Positions 2,780 to 7,210 of a DNA stretch of 64,000 nt are shown here, piece after piece; position 1 is the stretch's first letter, and the number at the start of each line of letters is the position of its first letter. The notes beneath the pieces are model-generated. The model searched no databases. It saw only the letters and a list, made by a program, of their open reading frames with translations, and had not been told where the DNA came from. A program made the translations under genes and the position numbers. This DNA comes from Paenibacillus sp. SYP-B4298 (GTDB taxonomy: Bacteria; Bacillota; Bacilli; Paenibacillales; Paenibacillaceae): contig NZ_CP115484.1 in NCBI RefSeq assembly GCF_027627475.1, positions 2,960,001-3,024,000 of the forward strand, written 5' to 3'.

Positions 2780-2915
2780 ACTTCATTCTCCTCTACATCC
2801 GTAATGGTTGCATCGAAGTTAGTATGAAGCATTCCCCCATCTATCATACATTGCTGTGCTGTCTTATGCTTGAACATAGCAAACTGTCATAGCATGCAGG
2901 CACGTCATTCCTTGC

Positions 2916-3173
2916 CTAAGGCTGGGTTAGAAGCTGTTGTCCGGGCCGGTATGGATCCATCCTTGGTCGGCTTGGCGACGGCAACGGCTCAATCATGCCC
3001 GAGCTGGAATAGATGTCCTGGCGGACAGAGGGCCCGTATACATCCTCGATAACCACCGCTTGAACCGCTTGCTCCTCCTGCCGAGGTTCCTGAACTCCCA
3101 ACAACAACAGCATCCATATGCTACAGGCCAGCAGCGCCAGTATAGCCATCCATCCTGCTGCCACTCTCCACAT
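2916..3173 (-). CDS. Small membrane-anchored hypothetical protein
   Basis: An 85-residue protein with a single hydrophobic N-terminal segment (about residues 6-27, GWMAILALLACSIWMLLLLG), followed by a polar, proline-rich tail predicted to lie outside the membrane. AAAGGGGGG lies 8 bases upstream of the ATG, which supports expression. I do not recognise a family. The signal-like segment could also be a lipoprotein or secretion signal, but no proper lipobox is seen. The composition of the tail (PLPSPSRPRMDPYRPG) suggests disorder. Confidence 0.55.
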   Translation of the reverse strand: MWRVAAGWMAILALLACSIWMLLLLGVQEPRQEEQAVQAVVIEDVYGPSVRQDIYSSSGMIEPLPSPSRPRMDPYRPGQQLLTQP

Positions 3174-3379
3174 CTGCTGTTCCCCCCTTTAGAATTACAC
3201 GTACACGCCTCGGTTGAGCCTGGACTGCGCAGGCCATCTAAGCAGTATTGCCTGATCCACTCCTCTCCAAACGAATTACAATGGCGAATAATATGCGATT
3301 CCATATTTCAAACTAAGCAAGTCAAGCGAACACCAGACAGATGCGCAGTGATGCGGCTGTGTTAAAGGAGGGATGGGAA

Positions 3380-3565
3380 ATGAGCAAAGCATTTGACAGT
3401 AATTATAATTGTGCGAACGCCTCCGAGGATCTCCAAGAGCTGAAGCATTCGCTGGAACAGCTACAATCACAGGGTGAGCTGACACAAGAGCAGCAGGAGG
3501 AAGCGAATCGGCTGGGCAACCTGATTCATTTTATTACAAACAAATGTGATATTCATAACGGCTAA
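3380..3565 (+). CDS. Small hypothetical helical protein
   Basis: A 61-residue protein read from an ATG with a strong upstream site (AAAGGAGGGATGGGAA). Residues 15-50 are charged and Leu/Gln-rich (DLQELKHSLEQLQSQGELTQ), consistent with a helical hairpin. Two cysteines (11 and 55) flank it. It has no family that I recognise. It is 21 bases upstream of the next small gene, probably co-transcribed. Confidence 0.7.
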   Translation: MSKAFDSNYNCANASEDLQELKHSLEQLQSQGELTQEQQEEANRLGNLIHFITNKCDIHNG

Positions 3566-3586
3566 CTGAAAGAAAGGAGCGGAAAT

Positions 3587-3784
3587 ATGGCTGAGCATAA
3601 TCCATTACCGACCAGGGCAAAGAAGGACAACACTTCCCCTCTGTCTGCCCAGAAGCACAAGAATGCCAACGCCACCGATGAGCGGATGGAAGCACCTCCA
3701 GGAATCGAGCCAGGCTACGACTACATCTGGGGCAGTGATCAGGATGAGCTGGTGCAAAACCATACTGAACGCGATACGAAATAA
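3587..3784 (+). CDS. Small hydrophilic hypothetical protein
   Basis: A 65-residue, highly polar and probably disordered protein (KKDNTSPLSAQKHKNANATDERMEA in two parts), with no membrane segment. GAAAGGAGCGG precedes the ATG at good spacing, and it follows the 61-residue gene closely. Small acidic/basic polar proteins of this type are frequent in spore-formers, but no specific role can be assigned. Confidence 0.6.
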   Translation: MAEHNPLPTRAKKDNTSPLSAQKHKNANATDERMEAPPGIEPGYDYIWGSDQDELVQNHTERDTK

Positions 3785-4039: not shown

Positions 4040-4057
4040 ATTAATTGTCGCTGATAT

Positions 4058-4130
4058 GATCTGTTAGCTCAGCTGGGAGAGCACCATCTTGACAGGGTGG
4101 GGGTCAGTGGTTCGAGCCCACTACAGATCA
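4058..4130 (+). tRNA. tRNA-Val (anticodon GAC)
   Basis: The 73-nt gene folds as a full cloverleaf: acceptor GATCTGT/ACAGATC, D-stem GCTC/GAGC, anticodon stem CCATC/GGTGG with loop TTGACAG (anticodon GAC), T-arm AGTGG-TTCGAGC-CCACT and discriminator A. No CCA is encoded. It has its own promoter and terminator. It borders an integrase remnant and is the likely historical attachment site of an integrated element. Confidence 0.95.
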
Positions 4131-4137
4131 TTACGAA

Positions 4138-4212: not shown

Positions 4213-4272
4213 ATTTGGTGCCGATTTGGTGCCCTTTATTCTACTAAAGCACTATTGGTGCCATTTGGTGCC
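4213..4272. repeat. Four direct repeats ATTTGGTGCC (integrase arm-type sites)
   Basis: ATTTGGTGCC occurs at 4213-4222, 4224-4233 and 4263-4272, with a shortened copy ATTGGTGCC at 4254-4262. They form two close pairs between the tRNA and the 3' end of the integrase remnant, where integrase arm-binding sites normally lie. The assignment is by position and repeat structure. Confidence 0.65.
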
Positions 4273-4602
4273 GCAAAAAACATCTCTCCGAATGCGTCCG
4301 CTGTCTCCTGCTGCATGTGTGGTGTAATGTGAGAATAGCGATCTAGCATCTTCACGCTCGACCAACCCATCCTCTCTGCAATACGCTTATTGTTCTCCCT
4401 CATCTTCAACAGCATGACAACATGCGTATGACGCAAGTCATGGAACCGTATCTTCGGTACTCCTGCCTTCTCGATCAGGCGATAAAACGAACGGTTGATA
4501 TTGCGCGGCGACAACGGGCTACCTAATCGTGTCCACCTCCTGCATACGCAAGCCTAGAATCTCAGAACCAATAGGAATGAATTCTGGAGGCGCGTGAGAT
4601 GT
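4236..4602 (-). pseudogene. Tyrosine recombinase (integrase) C-terminal remnant
   Basis: The last 92 residues carry the catalytic half of a phage-type integrase: FHDLRHTH (His-x-x-Arg box), GWSSVKMLDRYSH with the nucleophile Tyr context, and a short tail. Upstream, in another reading frame, codons for GSEILGLRMQEVD (the region of the first catalytic Arg) run into a TAG near 4516. The two parts are therefore joined by an internal deletion with frame change, and the N-terminal DNA-binding domain is missing. It points toward the tRNA-Val 3' end, the usual layout of a prophage or integrative element. It is not functional as read. Confidence 0.8.
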
Positions 4603-4768
4603 TTAAGCTGCTTGATTATGTAGAATACCGAAACTTCAACGGGCGAAGCAAGCATGTGAGAACAGCGAGCATTTAGTGAAGGATCATTTCGTGGAGATGC
4701 ACGATATGATTGTTGCATTGTCCCGTTACGCTTGCTACCTCATCATTCAGAGCATCGACCACGCGTAA
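4599..4768 (+). pseudogene. Frameshifted small gene, probable prophage remnant
   Basis: An ATG at 4599 with TGGAGG upstream opens 25 codons (MFKLLDYVEYRNFNGRSKHV...) that end at a TAG. The adjacent frame continues without a break as SEHLVKDHFVEMHDMIVALS... to a TAA at 4766-4768. The two segments read as one ~55-residue protein split by a small indel. Its place next to the integrase remnant supports a prophage origin; I do not recognise the family. Confidence 0.4.
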
Positions 4769-4816
4769 CATAGAAGGGGGAACCCCAGAGGTTATTTCTC
4801 GGAGACAATACTAGAA

Positions 4817-4847
4817 AGAGCCGCCATAGTTGCGGCTCTAATTATTC
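4817..4847. terminator. Hairpin terminator at the end of the agr-like operon
   Basis: AGAGCCGC, a 7-base loop and GCGGCTCT with AT-rich flanks. It lies downstream of the LytTR gene on the minus strand and of the prophage remnant on the plus strand, so it may serve both. Confidence 0.65.
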
Positions 4848-4893
4848 ATACCATCTAGGTTGATTAGTAACCTTTCTGAATATTTCCACCTAC

Positions 4894-5265
4894 TTATTGA
4901 ATAATCAGCTCAGGATTAATCAATTTGATCTGTTTGATGATCTGTTTATAGTTCATAAATGCCACTGGACAATTTTTTGATTTGGCTTCAATGACATGTT
5001 CGAAATATAACATCCCTCGTTTTTGGTTCACCAGCATGACCTTATCCATATTGACCACCGTGTTTCTGTCTACCTTCTGAAATCTGAAACCGGAGGCATT
5101 CAGTGCAGCACAAAAATATTTAAGCGATCCCATAGCCAAGTATTCCTCATGCTGCAAATGGAACACCACATGACCGTCATCATGAGAGAAATACAATATA
5201 TCATGTGGACTAATCTGAAAAAAGCCGGAATGACCATCAATATCGCGAGTAAGTGACAAGAGCAT
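4894..5265 (-). CDS. LytTR-family DNA-binding regulator without receiver domain
   Basis: A 123-residue protein that is essentially only a LytTR DNA-binding domain: HDILYFSHDDGHVVFHL in the first strands, LKYFCAALNASGFRFQKVDRN with the conserved F-R-x-R/DRN-like turn, NMDKVMLVNQKRG, then the C-terminal strand. LytTR domains bind direct-repeat promoter sites and are the output of AgrA and LytR. AgrA-type regulators carry an N-terminal phospho-acceptor receiver; here there is none. The ATG at 5265 has CCAGGAGG upstream, and it starts five bases from the agrD-like stop. It is the last gene of the sensor-agrB-agrD-lytTR operon. Confidence 0.85.
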   Translation of the reverse strand: MLLSLTRDIDGHSGFFQISPHDILYFSHDDGHVVFHLQHEEYLAMGSLKYFCAALNASGFRFQKVDRNTVVNMDKVMLVNQKRGMLYFEHVIEAKSKNCPVAFMNYKQIIKQIKLINPELIIQ

Positions 5266-5269
5266 ACAA

Positions 5270-5404
5270 TCACCTCCTGGCTTTAAGTAGTTCTTCCGGT
5301 GTCTCATCCTGGTAGACATATAACCAGCTTGCAGTGGATACGACAAGCACGGCCAATGCTCCTAAAACTGTTGCGATATGATACAGTAATCTTCCTCTTC
5401 TCAA
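5270..5404 (-). CDS. agrD: Cyclic lactone autoinducer prepeptide (AgrD-like)
   Basis: A 44-residue peptide with the AgrD plan: basic, amphipathic N-terminal helix (residues 1-22), a short core STASWLYVY (23-31), and an acidic C-terminal tail (DETPEELLK) of the kind AgrB recognises. There is no cysteine, so the ring would be a lactone through Ser26 (or Ser23), not a thiolactone; this is inference from staphylococcal and enterococcal Ser-type peptides. It starts at TTG (5404) behind GGAGG. That TTG overlaps the agrB stop, so the two are translationally coupled. Confidence 0.85.
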   Translation of the reverse strand: MRRGRLLYHIATVLGALAVLVVSTASWLYVYQDETPEELLKARR

Positions 5405-5925
5405 GTCACTCTCCTCCTTCCCTCGATCAAAGTTAAGCATTGAACAAAAAAGGAAGCAGCGAGTACAGAGGAGTGAAACACCAGATTGCTTGCAATTATA
5501 AGCATCGAGATATATTTTAACAAAGGATAATAGTGATGCGGTATTCTGGTTTGTCTTTCGATTCGAGATGGAGCAAACCAGAGGGCTAATAGAAGAGAAA
5601 GAATCGTCAACACATAAAGGAGTGGCTTGTCCAACTGCACAAAAGCCAGTGTCAGCGCACCCGTCGTTGAAATGATAATGCACAGCAGACCCGATTTCAA
5701 ATGAATCCCTCCCGAGAACTGCCGCAGCAATGCGAAGCCCGCTAATGCAACCGCAGACTCTGCAAACTTGCCTAGAGCTGAAGCAATGACGAGGGTAAGC
5801 AGCGTAGTGAGTACAGCATTCAATAGAAAAGCAATAGAATATTTCAGGACTTCTACACTGCTAGGGTGCTCAGGCACAGATTTTTTGATCTGCGTAGCTA
5901 ATCGGGTCGCAACTGCATTGATCAT
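5401..5925 (-). CDS. agrB: AgrB-family membrane protease / accessory regulator
   Basis: A 174-residue polytopic membrane protein. AgrB proteins remove the C-terminal tail of AgrD and cyclise the peptide. The catalytic pair is visible in RQFSGGIHLKSGLLC: His75 and Cys82, at the spacing of the characterised S. aureus enzyme (His77/Cys84). About four to five hydrophobic segments follow the cytosolic N-terminus. GGAGG precedes the ATG at 5925. The start overlaps the sensor gene stop (ATGA), and its own stop overlaps the agrD start. The C-terminus is basic (EGRRRVT). Confidence 0.92.
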   Translation of the reverse strand: MINAVATRLATQIKKSVPEHPSSVEVLKYSIAFLLNAVLTTLLTLVIASALGKFAESAVALAGFALLRQFSGGIHLKSGLLCIIISTTGALTLAFVQLDKPLLYVLTILSLLLALWFAPSRIERQTRIPHHYYPLLKYISMLIIASNLVFHSSVLAASFFVQCLTLIEGRRRVT

Positions 5926-6560
5926 AGCTTCTCCTCCACTTCCTTTCGCAAGGCATAATAGAGAAATACGGCGAGAGAGAATAAAATAATTACAAAGTTT
6001 GCTTTAATATCCTGAAAATACATCATAATACACAGCACTAAAGCAAAGAGAGTGATTAAAGTCAACACCGCTATTCTCTCCCATTTGAAGCGAAGCTTCT
6101 CGAACTCAAAAGTGAAGCCCAACCCCCGTGAATATATGAACCAACTGCCGCCAAGTGCCAACAGGCTGCTAATGAGCTGCAATTCATACCCCTCTACAGA
6201 ATGGCCTGACACTTTCTCAATCGTAAAGTAGCCAAACGACAAAAGCAATACTGAGGATTGAATGAGGGCATAGCTTATATATCCGGTTACGGTTATAACC
6301 GCAGACCAGAACAATGGTATACGGATCACAGTCTTAAAGAACAACACTGTCAACAACAAATTAATAATCGGTGAAATTTCAACAAGAGCCAGCATGTCCC
6401 TAATTACATAATTTTGAAAGCTTATTAATAAAGACATAATGACTATGCTCCATATATGCTTCGTCACCTTAACCCGAAACAAATATAAAGCAACACTCAA
6501 TACCGCAATTCCTTCAATGGTTGAAAATAATAGAAACCCCGCGACATCCATCCTGGGCAC
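5922..6560 (-). CDS. Seven-segment membrane protein, AgrC-like sensor domain lacking a kinase
   Basis: A 212-residue integral membrane protein with about seven hydrophobic segments (around residues 8-27, 34-54, 60-75, 80-112, 128-146, 164-182 and 187-203). It ends with a charged stub, LRKEVEEKL. Sensor kinases of the AgrC/GHKL type begin exactly like this and then continue into a dimerisation helix and ATPase domain, both absent here. Its place as first gene of the agrB-agrD-lytTR operon suggests peptide sensing or export. The start is a GTG at 6560 or an ATG at 6551; neither has a strong SD. Alternative: an unrelated membrane partner of AgrB. Confidence 0.7.
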   Translation of the reverse strand: MPRMDVAGFLLFSTIEGIAVLSVALYLFRVKVTKHIWSIVIMSLLISFQNYVIRDMLALVEISPIINLLLTVLFFKTVIRIPLFWSAVITVTGYISYALIQSSVLLLSFGYFTIEKVSGHSVEGYELQLISSLLALGGSWFIYSRGLGFTFEFEKLRFKWERIAVLTLITLFALVLCIMMYFQDIKANFVIILFSLAVFLYYALRKEVEEKL

Positions 6561-6841
6561 CGTCTTTCTACATCTAATTCTATCTCTCTACGCACTAGAC
6601 TTTCCCACTGTAGGGCTCAAAGTCCTATATAGATTTTCACATACAACGCCTCTTCTACGCAACCATAATTTACACCAACAACGCCTCCTTCCTCGCAGAA
6701 TACGTTCCCGCGAAAGCTATACAGAAAAATGCAGTTTTTGGCGATTGAAGTCGGAAAAATGTAAAAATTTAGATTAAAGTTCAGAGCTTGTATAGTTTCG
6801 TTTGTTATGATGAAGGCATATTATTGTCTGAGGTGAATGAA

Positions 6842-7210
6842 ATGTACTCCCATATTGATCCCAATACACCGCTGAAGCATTACTTCGACATCATCGAGCC
6901 ATGTCTGACGCTTGACATTAATGAATTACGACGAGTGGCTTATGCTGACGAATATAAGAAGACAATTTCCCTCATGATTGGTTCGCTGCGCAGAAAACGT
7001 TATGTTACGATTGGTCATGTGCTGAATGCAACCTGGGCTGAGCTCGGACAAGTCCGTAATTTCGGAATTAAATGCCAACTGCTGCTATTCAGCTATCTTG
7101 ACCGAATCGTGCACCACCCTGAATGTCTCATCCACCTCGAAGTTGTAGAACGTAACCGGAAAATAACCGCAATCAAGCGCAGACTTCGGGAAATGGGTAT
7201 GATTCAGTAG
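6842..7210 (+). CDS. Small protein with RNA-polymerase alpha-CTD-like helix-hairpin segment
   Basis: A 122-residue protein, read from an ATG at 6842 with GAGGTGA upstream. Residues ~55-85 (VTIGHVLNATWAELGQVRNF, then GIKCQLLLFSYLD) follow the pattern of the alpha C-terminal domain, where a T-x-x-x-L-L-x-x-T-x-x-E-L-x-x-x-R-N-F-G helix-hairpin-helix binds DNA. The N-terminal third is helical and acidic; the C-terminal 30 residues are basic (RNRKITAIKRRLREMG). It is divergent from the agr-like operon, across a 281-base gap. A DNA-binding role is inference. Confidence 0.6.
   Translation: MYSHIDPNTPLKHYFDIIEPCLTLDINELRRVAYADEYKKTISLMIGSLRRKRYVTIGHVLNATWAELGQVRNFGIKCQLLLFSYLDRIVHHPECLIHLEVVERNRKITAIKRRLREMGMIQ

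Follow-up and report, generated by a model that had tools for sequence, protein, structure and literature searches.

A kinase-free agr operon in Paenibacillus, a candidate for peptide quorum sensing without a phosphorelay

Introduction

How could an Agr operon signal if it encodes neither a histidine kinase nor a receiver? Agr is the textbook peptide two-component system. The window studied here, a stretch of 64,000 nucleotides from Paenibacillus sp. SYP-B4298, carries on its minus strand a four-gene operon (6560-4894) in the order sensor, AgrB, AgrD, LytTR, from which both components are missing. We examined how the four genes are built, how widely their layout is kept, where the sensor comes from and which signalling route best accounts for the operon.

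Results

Genes and layout of the operon

The sensor and AgrB genes overlap at an ATGA, the AgrB and AgrD genes at a TTGA, and a gap of 4 bp separates AgrD from LytTR (Table 1). A sequence-only reading of the locus had claimed four overlapping or near-touching genes, and their positions and overlaps are all as it gave them. The GTG start of the sensor at 6560 yields 212 aa; an in-frame ATG at 6551, yielding 209 aa, aligns with the start of most relatives' sensors.

Table 1. Features of the agr operon and its flanks in the window.
Feature	Position	Strand	Details
Two 20-bp direct repeats, upstream of the sensor gene	6687-6668 and 6652-6633 (within 6633..6687)	-	17/20 identical, 35 bp apart
Seven-helix membrane sensor, AgrC-type input domain without DHp or ATPase domain	5922..6560	-	212 aa
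AgrB membrane peptidase	5401..5925	-	174 aa, His75 and Cys82; Pfam PF04647 AgrB E 6.5e-19
AgrD precursor	5270..5404	-	44 aa, TTG start at 5404; NCBIfam TIGR04223 quorum_AgrD E 2.1e-9
Lone LytTR DNA-binding protein	4894..5265	-	123 aa, ATG start at 5265; Pfam PF04397 LytTR E 1e-12
Tyrosine integrase C-terminal fragment, downstream of the operon	4236..4553	-	Pfam Phage_integrase E 1.9e-10 for 4236-4514
tRNA-Val(gac)	4057..4131	+	ARAGORN

The remaining gene assignments of that reading stand as well. Counting of residues places the conserved histidine and cysteine of AgrB where it had put them, and the Pfam match agrees. AgrD is free of cysteine, as stated; it has Ser at ring position -10 (counted from the proline of P-x-E-L) and the P-x-E-L tail, and its product is predicted to be a five-residue Ser lactone, SWLYV. 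The only Pfam match in the last protein, LytTR, spans residues 15-112 of 123, which leaves no space for the receiver that it had been said to lack. An AlphaFold model of this protein (pLDDT 95.8) resembles the LytTR domain of S. aureus AgrA (Foldseek E 2.8e-6, probability 1.00).

For the sensor, AlphaFold gives seven membrane-length helices (24-row alignment; pLDDT 92.7, pTM 0.89) at residues 6-27, 32-56, 60-77, 83-107, 121-144, 159-182 and 185-211, with a short extra one at 114-119. The last helix ends one residue short of the stop and the next gene is AgrB, which bears out the claim of a seven-segment membrane protein without the catalytic part of a kinase. Loops 28-31, 78-82 and 145-158 hold 2, 1 and 3 Lys or Arg residues, and loops 57-59, 108-120 and 183-184 hold 0, 1 and 0; a predicted topology with the N-terminus outside and the C-terminus inside would fit these charges. 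Neither Pfam nor NCBIfam matches the sensor up to E 1. A search with its fold against the PDB and viral structures returned nothing below E 0.001, and the fold is therefore uninformative about any solved AgrC.

Conservation in the genome, genus and family

AgrB is found at four places in the genome of Paenibacillus sp. SYP-B4298 (6.26 Mb, one contig), each time in the same four-gene order. Their sensors measure 212, 221, 231 and 217 aa and each comes with a lone LytTR; four of the six LytTR places in the genome lie inside these operons. In seven genomes of the genus, all 24 sensor places are short, with LytTR at 23 and a full-length AgrB frame at 20. Two copies are damaged: L010 retains AgrB fragments, and L015 only a LytTR remnant. 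Another three (L016, L017 and L025) keep sensor, AgrD and LytTR, with no AgrB found in the stretch.

The sequence-only reading had set a kinase in relatives, together with a frameshift here, as its refuting test: none of the 24 genus sensors continues into a kinase. Its call for the same order in Paenibacillaceae relatives is answered by three paralogues and by recurrence across the family. As for a sensor end at about 212 residues, every genus sensor is short and the lengths vary from 206 to 235 aa. We considered kinase fusion in two long open frames among the matches listed (G021 and G133, 426 and 324 codons) and rejected it, because the additional codons precede the sensor start. The conserved layout in genome, genus and family likewise rules out a fresh truncation or frameshift. 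With that layout at all four AgrB loci, in relatives and throughout the census below, the view of the four genes as one functional unit is upheld; by comparison of sequences, the operon is a conserved unit.

At the level of the family, sensor profile A1 matches at least 123 of 197 genomes, and profile A5, made for divergent sensors, matches 123 of the 197. The AgrB model gave 77 rows in 59 family genomes, which we sorted by position and by reading the stretches. Sixty-eight adjoin a short sensor, a few of these copies being broken (for instance L010 and the second pair of L101); five adjoin a full kinase, three are orphans, and one is spurious (L120, below the cut-off). The five with a kinase are the canonical agr loci of the family (L092-L096; kinase of 441-455 aa in 5/5). 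Pfam was run on one of them, L094, and identifies there a GHKL kinase together with a receiver-LytTR protein; the stretch of L093 yielded no regulator. Kinase and receiver are jointly absent from short-sensor loci, and the canonical loci of the family have the kinase in five of five and the receiver in the one checked.

Two arrangements in the family deserve mention on their own. Three genomes each hold an orphan AgrB and a separate sensor unit devoid of AgrB (L104/L121 in G059, L109/L122 in G007, L110/L123 in G025), as if, to judge from their sequences, these operons had been split. At L102, a full GHKL kinase gene (4299-5648; 449 aa, Pfam HATPase_c E 7.3e-18) diverges from a kinase-free agr operon; the N-terminus of this kinase does not match the sensor profile.

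The census drawn from all loci collected comprises 181 distinct sensor-like sequences: 162 short ones with no adjacent kinase, 11 flagged for a kinase (including the pseudokinase-like L237 and L242), five more long ones (L236, L238-L241), the split L070, the cut end L074 and the partial frame L103. Short means stopping fewer than 25 residues past the sensor profile, a weak filter that fails in only 7 of 170 unflagged rows (five pseudokinase-like, L103 and L074), the passing rows stopping 0-23 residues past the profile; L070 was also subtracted to reach 162. Directly downstream of 140 of the 162 short sensors lies an AgrB frame, overlapping in 129 cases. The His-Cys pattern is present in 135 of these 140 frames and a variant with His and Cys in 4; the last is the L010 fragment.

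A LytTR gene follows on the same strand in 126 of the 162. In 124 of them the LytTR match begins after about 60 residues at most, too few for a receiver; we judged by length because our own receiver profile missed receivers visible to Pfam (L242). The other two are L067, an over-long frame, and L227, a true exception. In the latter locus (2866-3627, family f159) a short sensor is followed by a 253 aa LytTR protein with a receiver-like half. No LytTR was found downstream of the remaining 36 short sensors, some of whose stretches are cut or copies decayed.

Origin of the sensor

Searched against 398 genomes of the phylum, the sensor profile found 13 places outside the family: four full kinases (445-456 aa, in three genomes), eight split systems and L077, a short sensor gene with the kinase absent from its stretch. 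In the split systems (L070-L073, L075, L078, L080, L081) a sensor gene of about 165 aa is followed by a GHKL kinase gene and then by AgrB. An hhalign comparison of the sensor with Agr-linked kinase input domains gave a probability of 98.4 (E 1e-14, 147 columns), the target being 12 rows (input domains of the full and split kinases plus the short L077, with L081 omitted) that the sensor profile itself had found and that are hence not an independent draw. At the sequence level, the sensor and the input domain that full and split Agr-linked kinases carry in other Bacillota are homologues. Against canonical AgrC of its own family, the sensor profile gave no detectable match (probability 3.4).

In 398 genomes of the class, eight sensor places have frames of at least 412 codons. 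Pfam shows one of these, L243, to be an ordinary kinase, and it is a weak match. The other seven (L236-L242; 406-450 aa; families f149, f167 and f187) join the sensor to a kinase-sized tail, and their alignment lacks the phospho-accepting His, the N box and the G box. Up to E 1, Pfam detects an ATPase domain in none of them, and L237 and L242 still reach our own kinase profile. These seven relatives from other Bacilli look like pseudokinases, as far as alignment can tell. Four of them (L237, L239, L241, L242) adjoin LytTR proteins of 240-245 aa, with the receiver confirmed by Pfam in both neighbours tested (L237 and L242). Beside neither L236 nor L240 did we find a LytTR gene; L238 is cut.

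A tree of 111 sensor rows, with the short sensors thinned to 93, separates 92 of those 93, across a branch supported at 99/92, from all full, split and pseudo forms together with L077. Read as an unrooted tree, whose inner order several long branches blur, this division fits a single kinase loss ancestral to the short-sensor clade.

Ring residues of AgrD

Of the 181 sensors, 147 could be paired with an AgrD tail, two of these tails being weak matches (L197, L255), and loci with twin sensors count twice in this tally (L125, L127, L211). Seventy-eight tails have Ser and 18 have Cys at -10; 44 have Lys at -9 with no Ser or Cys at -10. The seven others comprise two with Cys at -11, three with Ser at -9 and two that look spurious. 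L101 combines Ser at -10 with Lys at -9. Restricting the count to kinase-free sensors (141 AgrD rows for 162) leaves 73 Ser, 44 Lys, 17 Cys and 7 other, so that every Lys-type row is a kinase-free row.

Lys-type precursors occur both in the four phages treated below and in chromosomes, at loci L125-L128, L100, L106-L108, L111, L114, L027, L030, L060, L063, L068 and L083, among others. They share little beyond the Lys, the tail and the residue at -5, which is Gly in 26, His in 15, Tyr in 2 and Asn in 1. The known AgrD-derived ring is a 16-membered thiolactone, according to the text available from PMC4979651. Because Lys stands one residue nearer and has a longer side chain, a ring closed through it would also count 16 atoms (7+9), provided that the AgrB cleavage site is unchanged. 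A natural lactam autoinducing peptide is thus a fair guess for the Lys-type products, made from their sequences. In one open-access library we recognised no paper describing a natural lactam autoinducer.

Phages and mobile-element context

The Brevibacillus phages Davies, Abouo and Emery and the Paenibacillus phage Harrison carry one or more sensors, AgrB, AgrD and a gene of 118-122 aa, with an integrase or recombinase within about 2 kb. The small gene is annotated as hypothetical or otherwise, yet it matches LytTR: by our own profile in all four (E 2e-16 to 7e-10, with 18 sequences searched), and by Pfam above the cut-off in Abouo and Harrison and below it in Davies, the three covered by that scan. 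A fifth phage, Paisley, gave an AgrB match only. Two tandem sensor genes precede AgrB in Emery (L127, 2607-5018) and Davies (L125, 3268-5683), and a single one in Abouo and Harrison.

For Davies, Emery and Abouo, PMC3901668 already reports, in the portion available, AgrB, AgrD and membrane proteins that are maybe AgrC homologues without the ATPase domain. These cassettes resemble the window operon in having sensor(s), AgrB, AgrD and a lone LytTR. The neighbouring LytTR gene and the chromosomal family go unmentioned in that portion, and both are added by the present analysis.

Next to the window operon lie a tRNA-Val gene and an integrase fragment, for which reason the operon may have come on an element; the tRNA is a possible old integration site. 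The opposite flank holds a 140-aa frame with no family match above the cut-off. A general tie to mobile elements was considered and rejected: four integrase queries gave a match within the stretch collected in only 12 of 174 loci, the window and the four phages included. By eye, the sensor gene of L009, L017, L038 and L041 is closely preceded, on its own strand, by the end of a small frame of helix-turn-helix or excisionase type, and that of L028 by a primase-like one.

Comparison with known systems

The window operon shares with canonical Agr (agrBDCA of Staphylococcus and relatives; here L092-L096) AgrB, an AgrD with the conserved tail and encoding in one operon, as well as a multi-helix input domain and an AgrA-type LytTR DNA-binding domain. 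It differs in having neither histidine kinase domain nor receiver and in its order, sensor-B-D-LytTR. The AgrD ring position, which is Cys in all five canonical loci, is Ser, Lys or Cys in most kinase-free ones. Measured against the hallmarks of canonical Agr, the AgrB His and Cys and the AgrD ring residue and P-x-E-L are present; the DHp and ATPase domains of AgrC and the receiver of AgrA are not. Split AgrC of other Bacillota likewise has a short AgrC-type sensor as a gene of its own in an agr locus, but there the kinase gene follows the sensor directly, whereas in the window AgrB comes next.

A second parallel is the LRS (HdrRM, BrsRM), in which, according to the text available from PMC6193735, a membrane protein inhibits a LytTR regulator independently of phosphate. 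Here too a LytTR regulator without receiver is encoded beside a multi-helix membrane protein without kinase. The LRS filter of that paper, as far as its available text goes, takes a membrane protein of DUF3021 or DUF2154 type; the window protein is instead an AgrC-type input domain and matches neither. The LRS regulator gene precedes the membrane gene, whereas in the window the sensor gene is first and LytTR last, and the window operon also encodes a peptide signal and its processing enzyme. LRS promoters are described in the same text as having a pair of 9-bp direct repeats, spaced by 12 bp, ahead of the -35 (PMC6193735); such repeats show no excess upstream of kinase-free agr operons, and the window has instead its 20-bp pair spaced by 35 bp. 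By analogy, the kinase-free operon would work like an LRS joined to Agr peptide chemistry, a full member of neither.

We recognised no paper describing the kinase-free family in one open-access library. The available text of a review of two-component quorum sensing (PMC8895600) does not mention Paenibacillus, and that of PMC10938842 reports a Paenibacillus genome with two AgrB clusters and leaves kinase and LytTR unmentioned. This kinase-free branch of Agr signalling is real and conserved and, as far as that library shows, apparently undescribed.

How the sensor may act on LytTR

We consider it probable, with some reserve, that the operon is a phosphorelay-free Agr quorum-sensing system, in which the state of the sensor controls the lone LytTR directly and no phosphate is transferred. 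AgrB would process AgrD by cleavage and cyclisation, giving a small ring peptide that is secreted and that in this operon is probably a Ser lactone. The seven-helix protein, an AgrC-type input domain alone, would bind this ring, and its state would act on LytTR by contact, in place of kinase and receiver. Most likely the sensor holds LytTR at the membrane, or otherwise inhibits it, until the peptide binds, inhibition of the regulator by LRS membrane proteins being the precedent; once released, LytTR would act on its promoters.

The sequence-only reading had left direct contact and an unlinked kinase side by side. Of the two, direct contact appears the better option, since the LytTR protein has no receiver to phosphorylate. 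That the sensor partners a GHKL kinase in trans, as split AgrC does in other Bacillota, might be expected from the separate sensor and kinase genes at 8 of the 13 non-family places in the phylum and from the 15 HATPase_c_5-like places elsewhere in this genome. The split systems, however, keep their kinase gene adjacent, whereas here an AgrB frame comes next in 140 of 162; the sensor ends at the membrane with no DHp helix to pair with a kinase, and in 124 of 126 LytTR proteins a phosphate-accepting receiver would not fit. Lacking a receiver, the system has no known acceptor for phosphate, and a kinase in trans alone therefore does not explain it. We regard this reading as improbable. Simple decay, with kinase and receiver lost by chance from a drifting operon, is more improbable by far: the integrase fragment beside the window operon and broken copies such as the L010 AgrB fragments and the LytTR remnant of L015 would suit it, but this genome has intact four-gene copies at 4/4 loci, the His-Cys pattern persists in 135 of 140 AgrB frames with four more in variant form, and conservation extends across genera and phages.

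More weight, if still that of a minority view, goes to a receptor that reaches LytTR indirectly, through a third protein, proteolysis or LytTR stability, or that works in AgrD export or self-immunity, with LytTR responding to a different cue. The missing LRS promoter hallmark and the 36 of 162 short sensors for which no LytTR was found downstream speak for it. Against it stand the kinship of the sensor with kinase input domains, the units that keep sensor, AgrD and LytTR without AgrB, and a sensor-LytTR link stronger than the AgrB-LytTR link. All three genes are present at 115 loci, of which 87 are non-redundant. Over these 87, the distances between sensors correlate with those between LytTR proteins at r 0.77; the partial r is 0.55 for sensor-LytTR given AgrB and 0.22 for AgrB-LytTR given sensor, the former being larger in 200 of 200 subsamples. 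Such values are what a working sensor-LytTR pair would be expected to give, with shared descent not fully removed from them.

Direct control of LytTR by the sensor can be set in a wider account, which we see as evenly balanced between right and wrong: an Agr ring peptide would be read by a kinase-less AgrC-type receptor that directly switches a receiver-less AgrA (LytTR), the arrangement having arisen by a single kinase loss, spread in Paenibacillaceae and Brevibacillus-like relatives, become phage-borne near integrases and perhaps come to inform lysogeny. If true, it would be a further mode of peptide quorum sensing in Gram-positive bacteria, and a large clade that retains peptide, peptidase, receptor and DNA-binding domain with no phosphate relay would show that the membrane part of an AgrC-type receptor can signal by itself. 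It would also make testable which signals reach LytTR-only regulators and by what means an AgrC-type receptor relays its state through the membrane. The four genes form a compact circuit that could be moved between laboratory hosts. The cassette in integrase-bearing phages suggests peptide talk between phages, or between phage and host, other than arbitrium.

Promoter regions

The identity of the two direct repeats upstream of the window sensor was reached in none of 1000 dinucleotide shuffles, and the repeats are a candidate regulator site, proposed from their sequence. A genome search with the pattern built from the two copies gave, apart from these copies themselves, ten matches at 3 mismatches, no more than the control with the reversed pattern. 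As a family rule the direct repeat was rejected: 4 of 82 upstream regions reach p 0.05 or less, which is the chance rate, the window being among the four. LRS-type repeats with at most 1, 2 and 3 mismatches occur in 0, 4 and 30 of 163 upstream regions, no excess over mononucleotide-shuffle means of 0.2, 5.8 and 42.6. The interval 4500-7000 has 6 sigma-70-like promoters against 6.1 expected.

Upstream of L018, L013 and L022 we noticed by eye AACC-N4-GGTT-like sites around a -10-like box, and a divergent gene for an XRE-type repressor adjoins the paralogue L002. This clade looks repressor-controlled.
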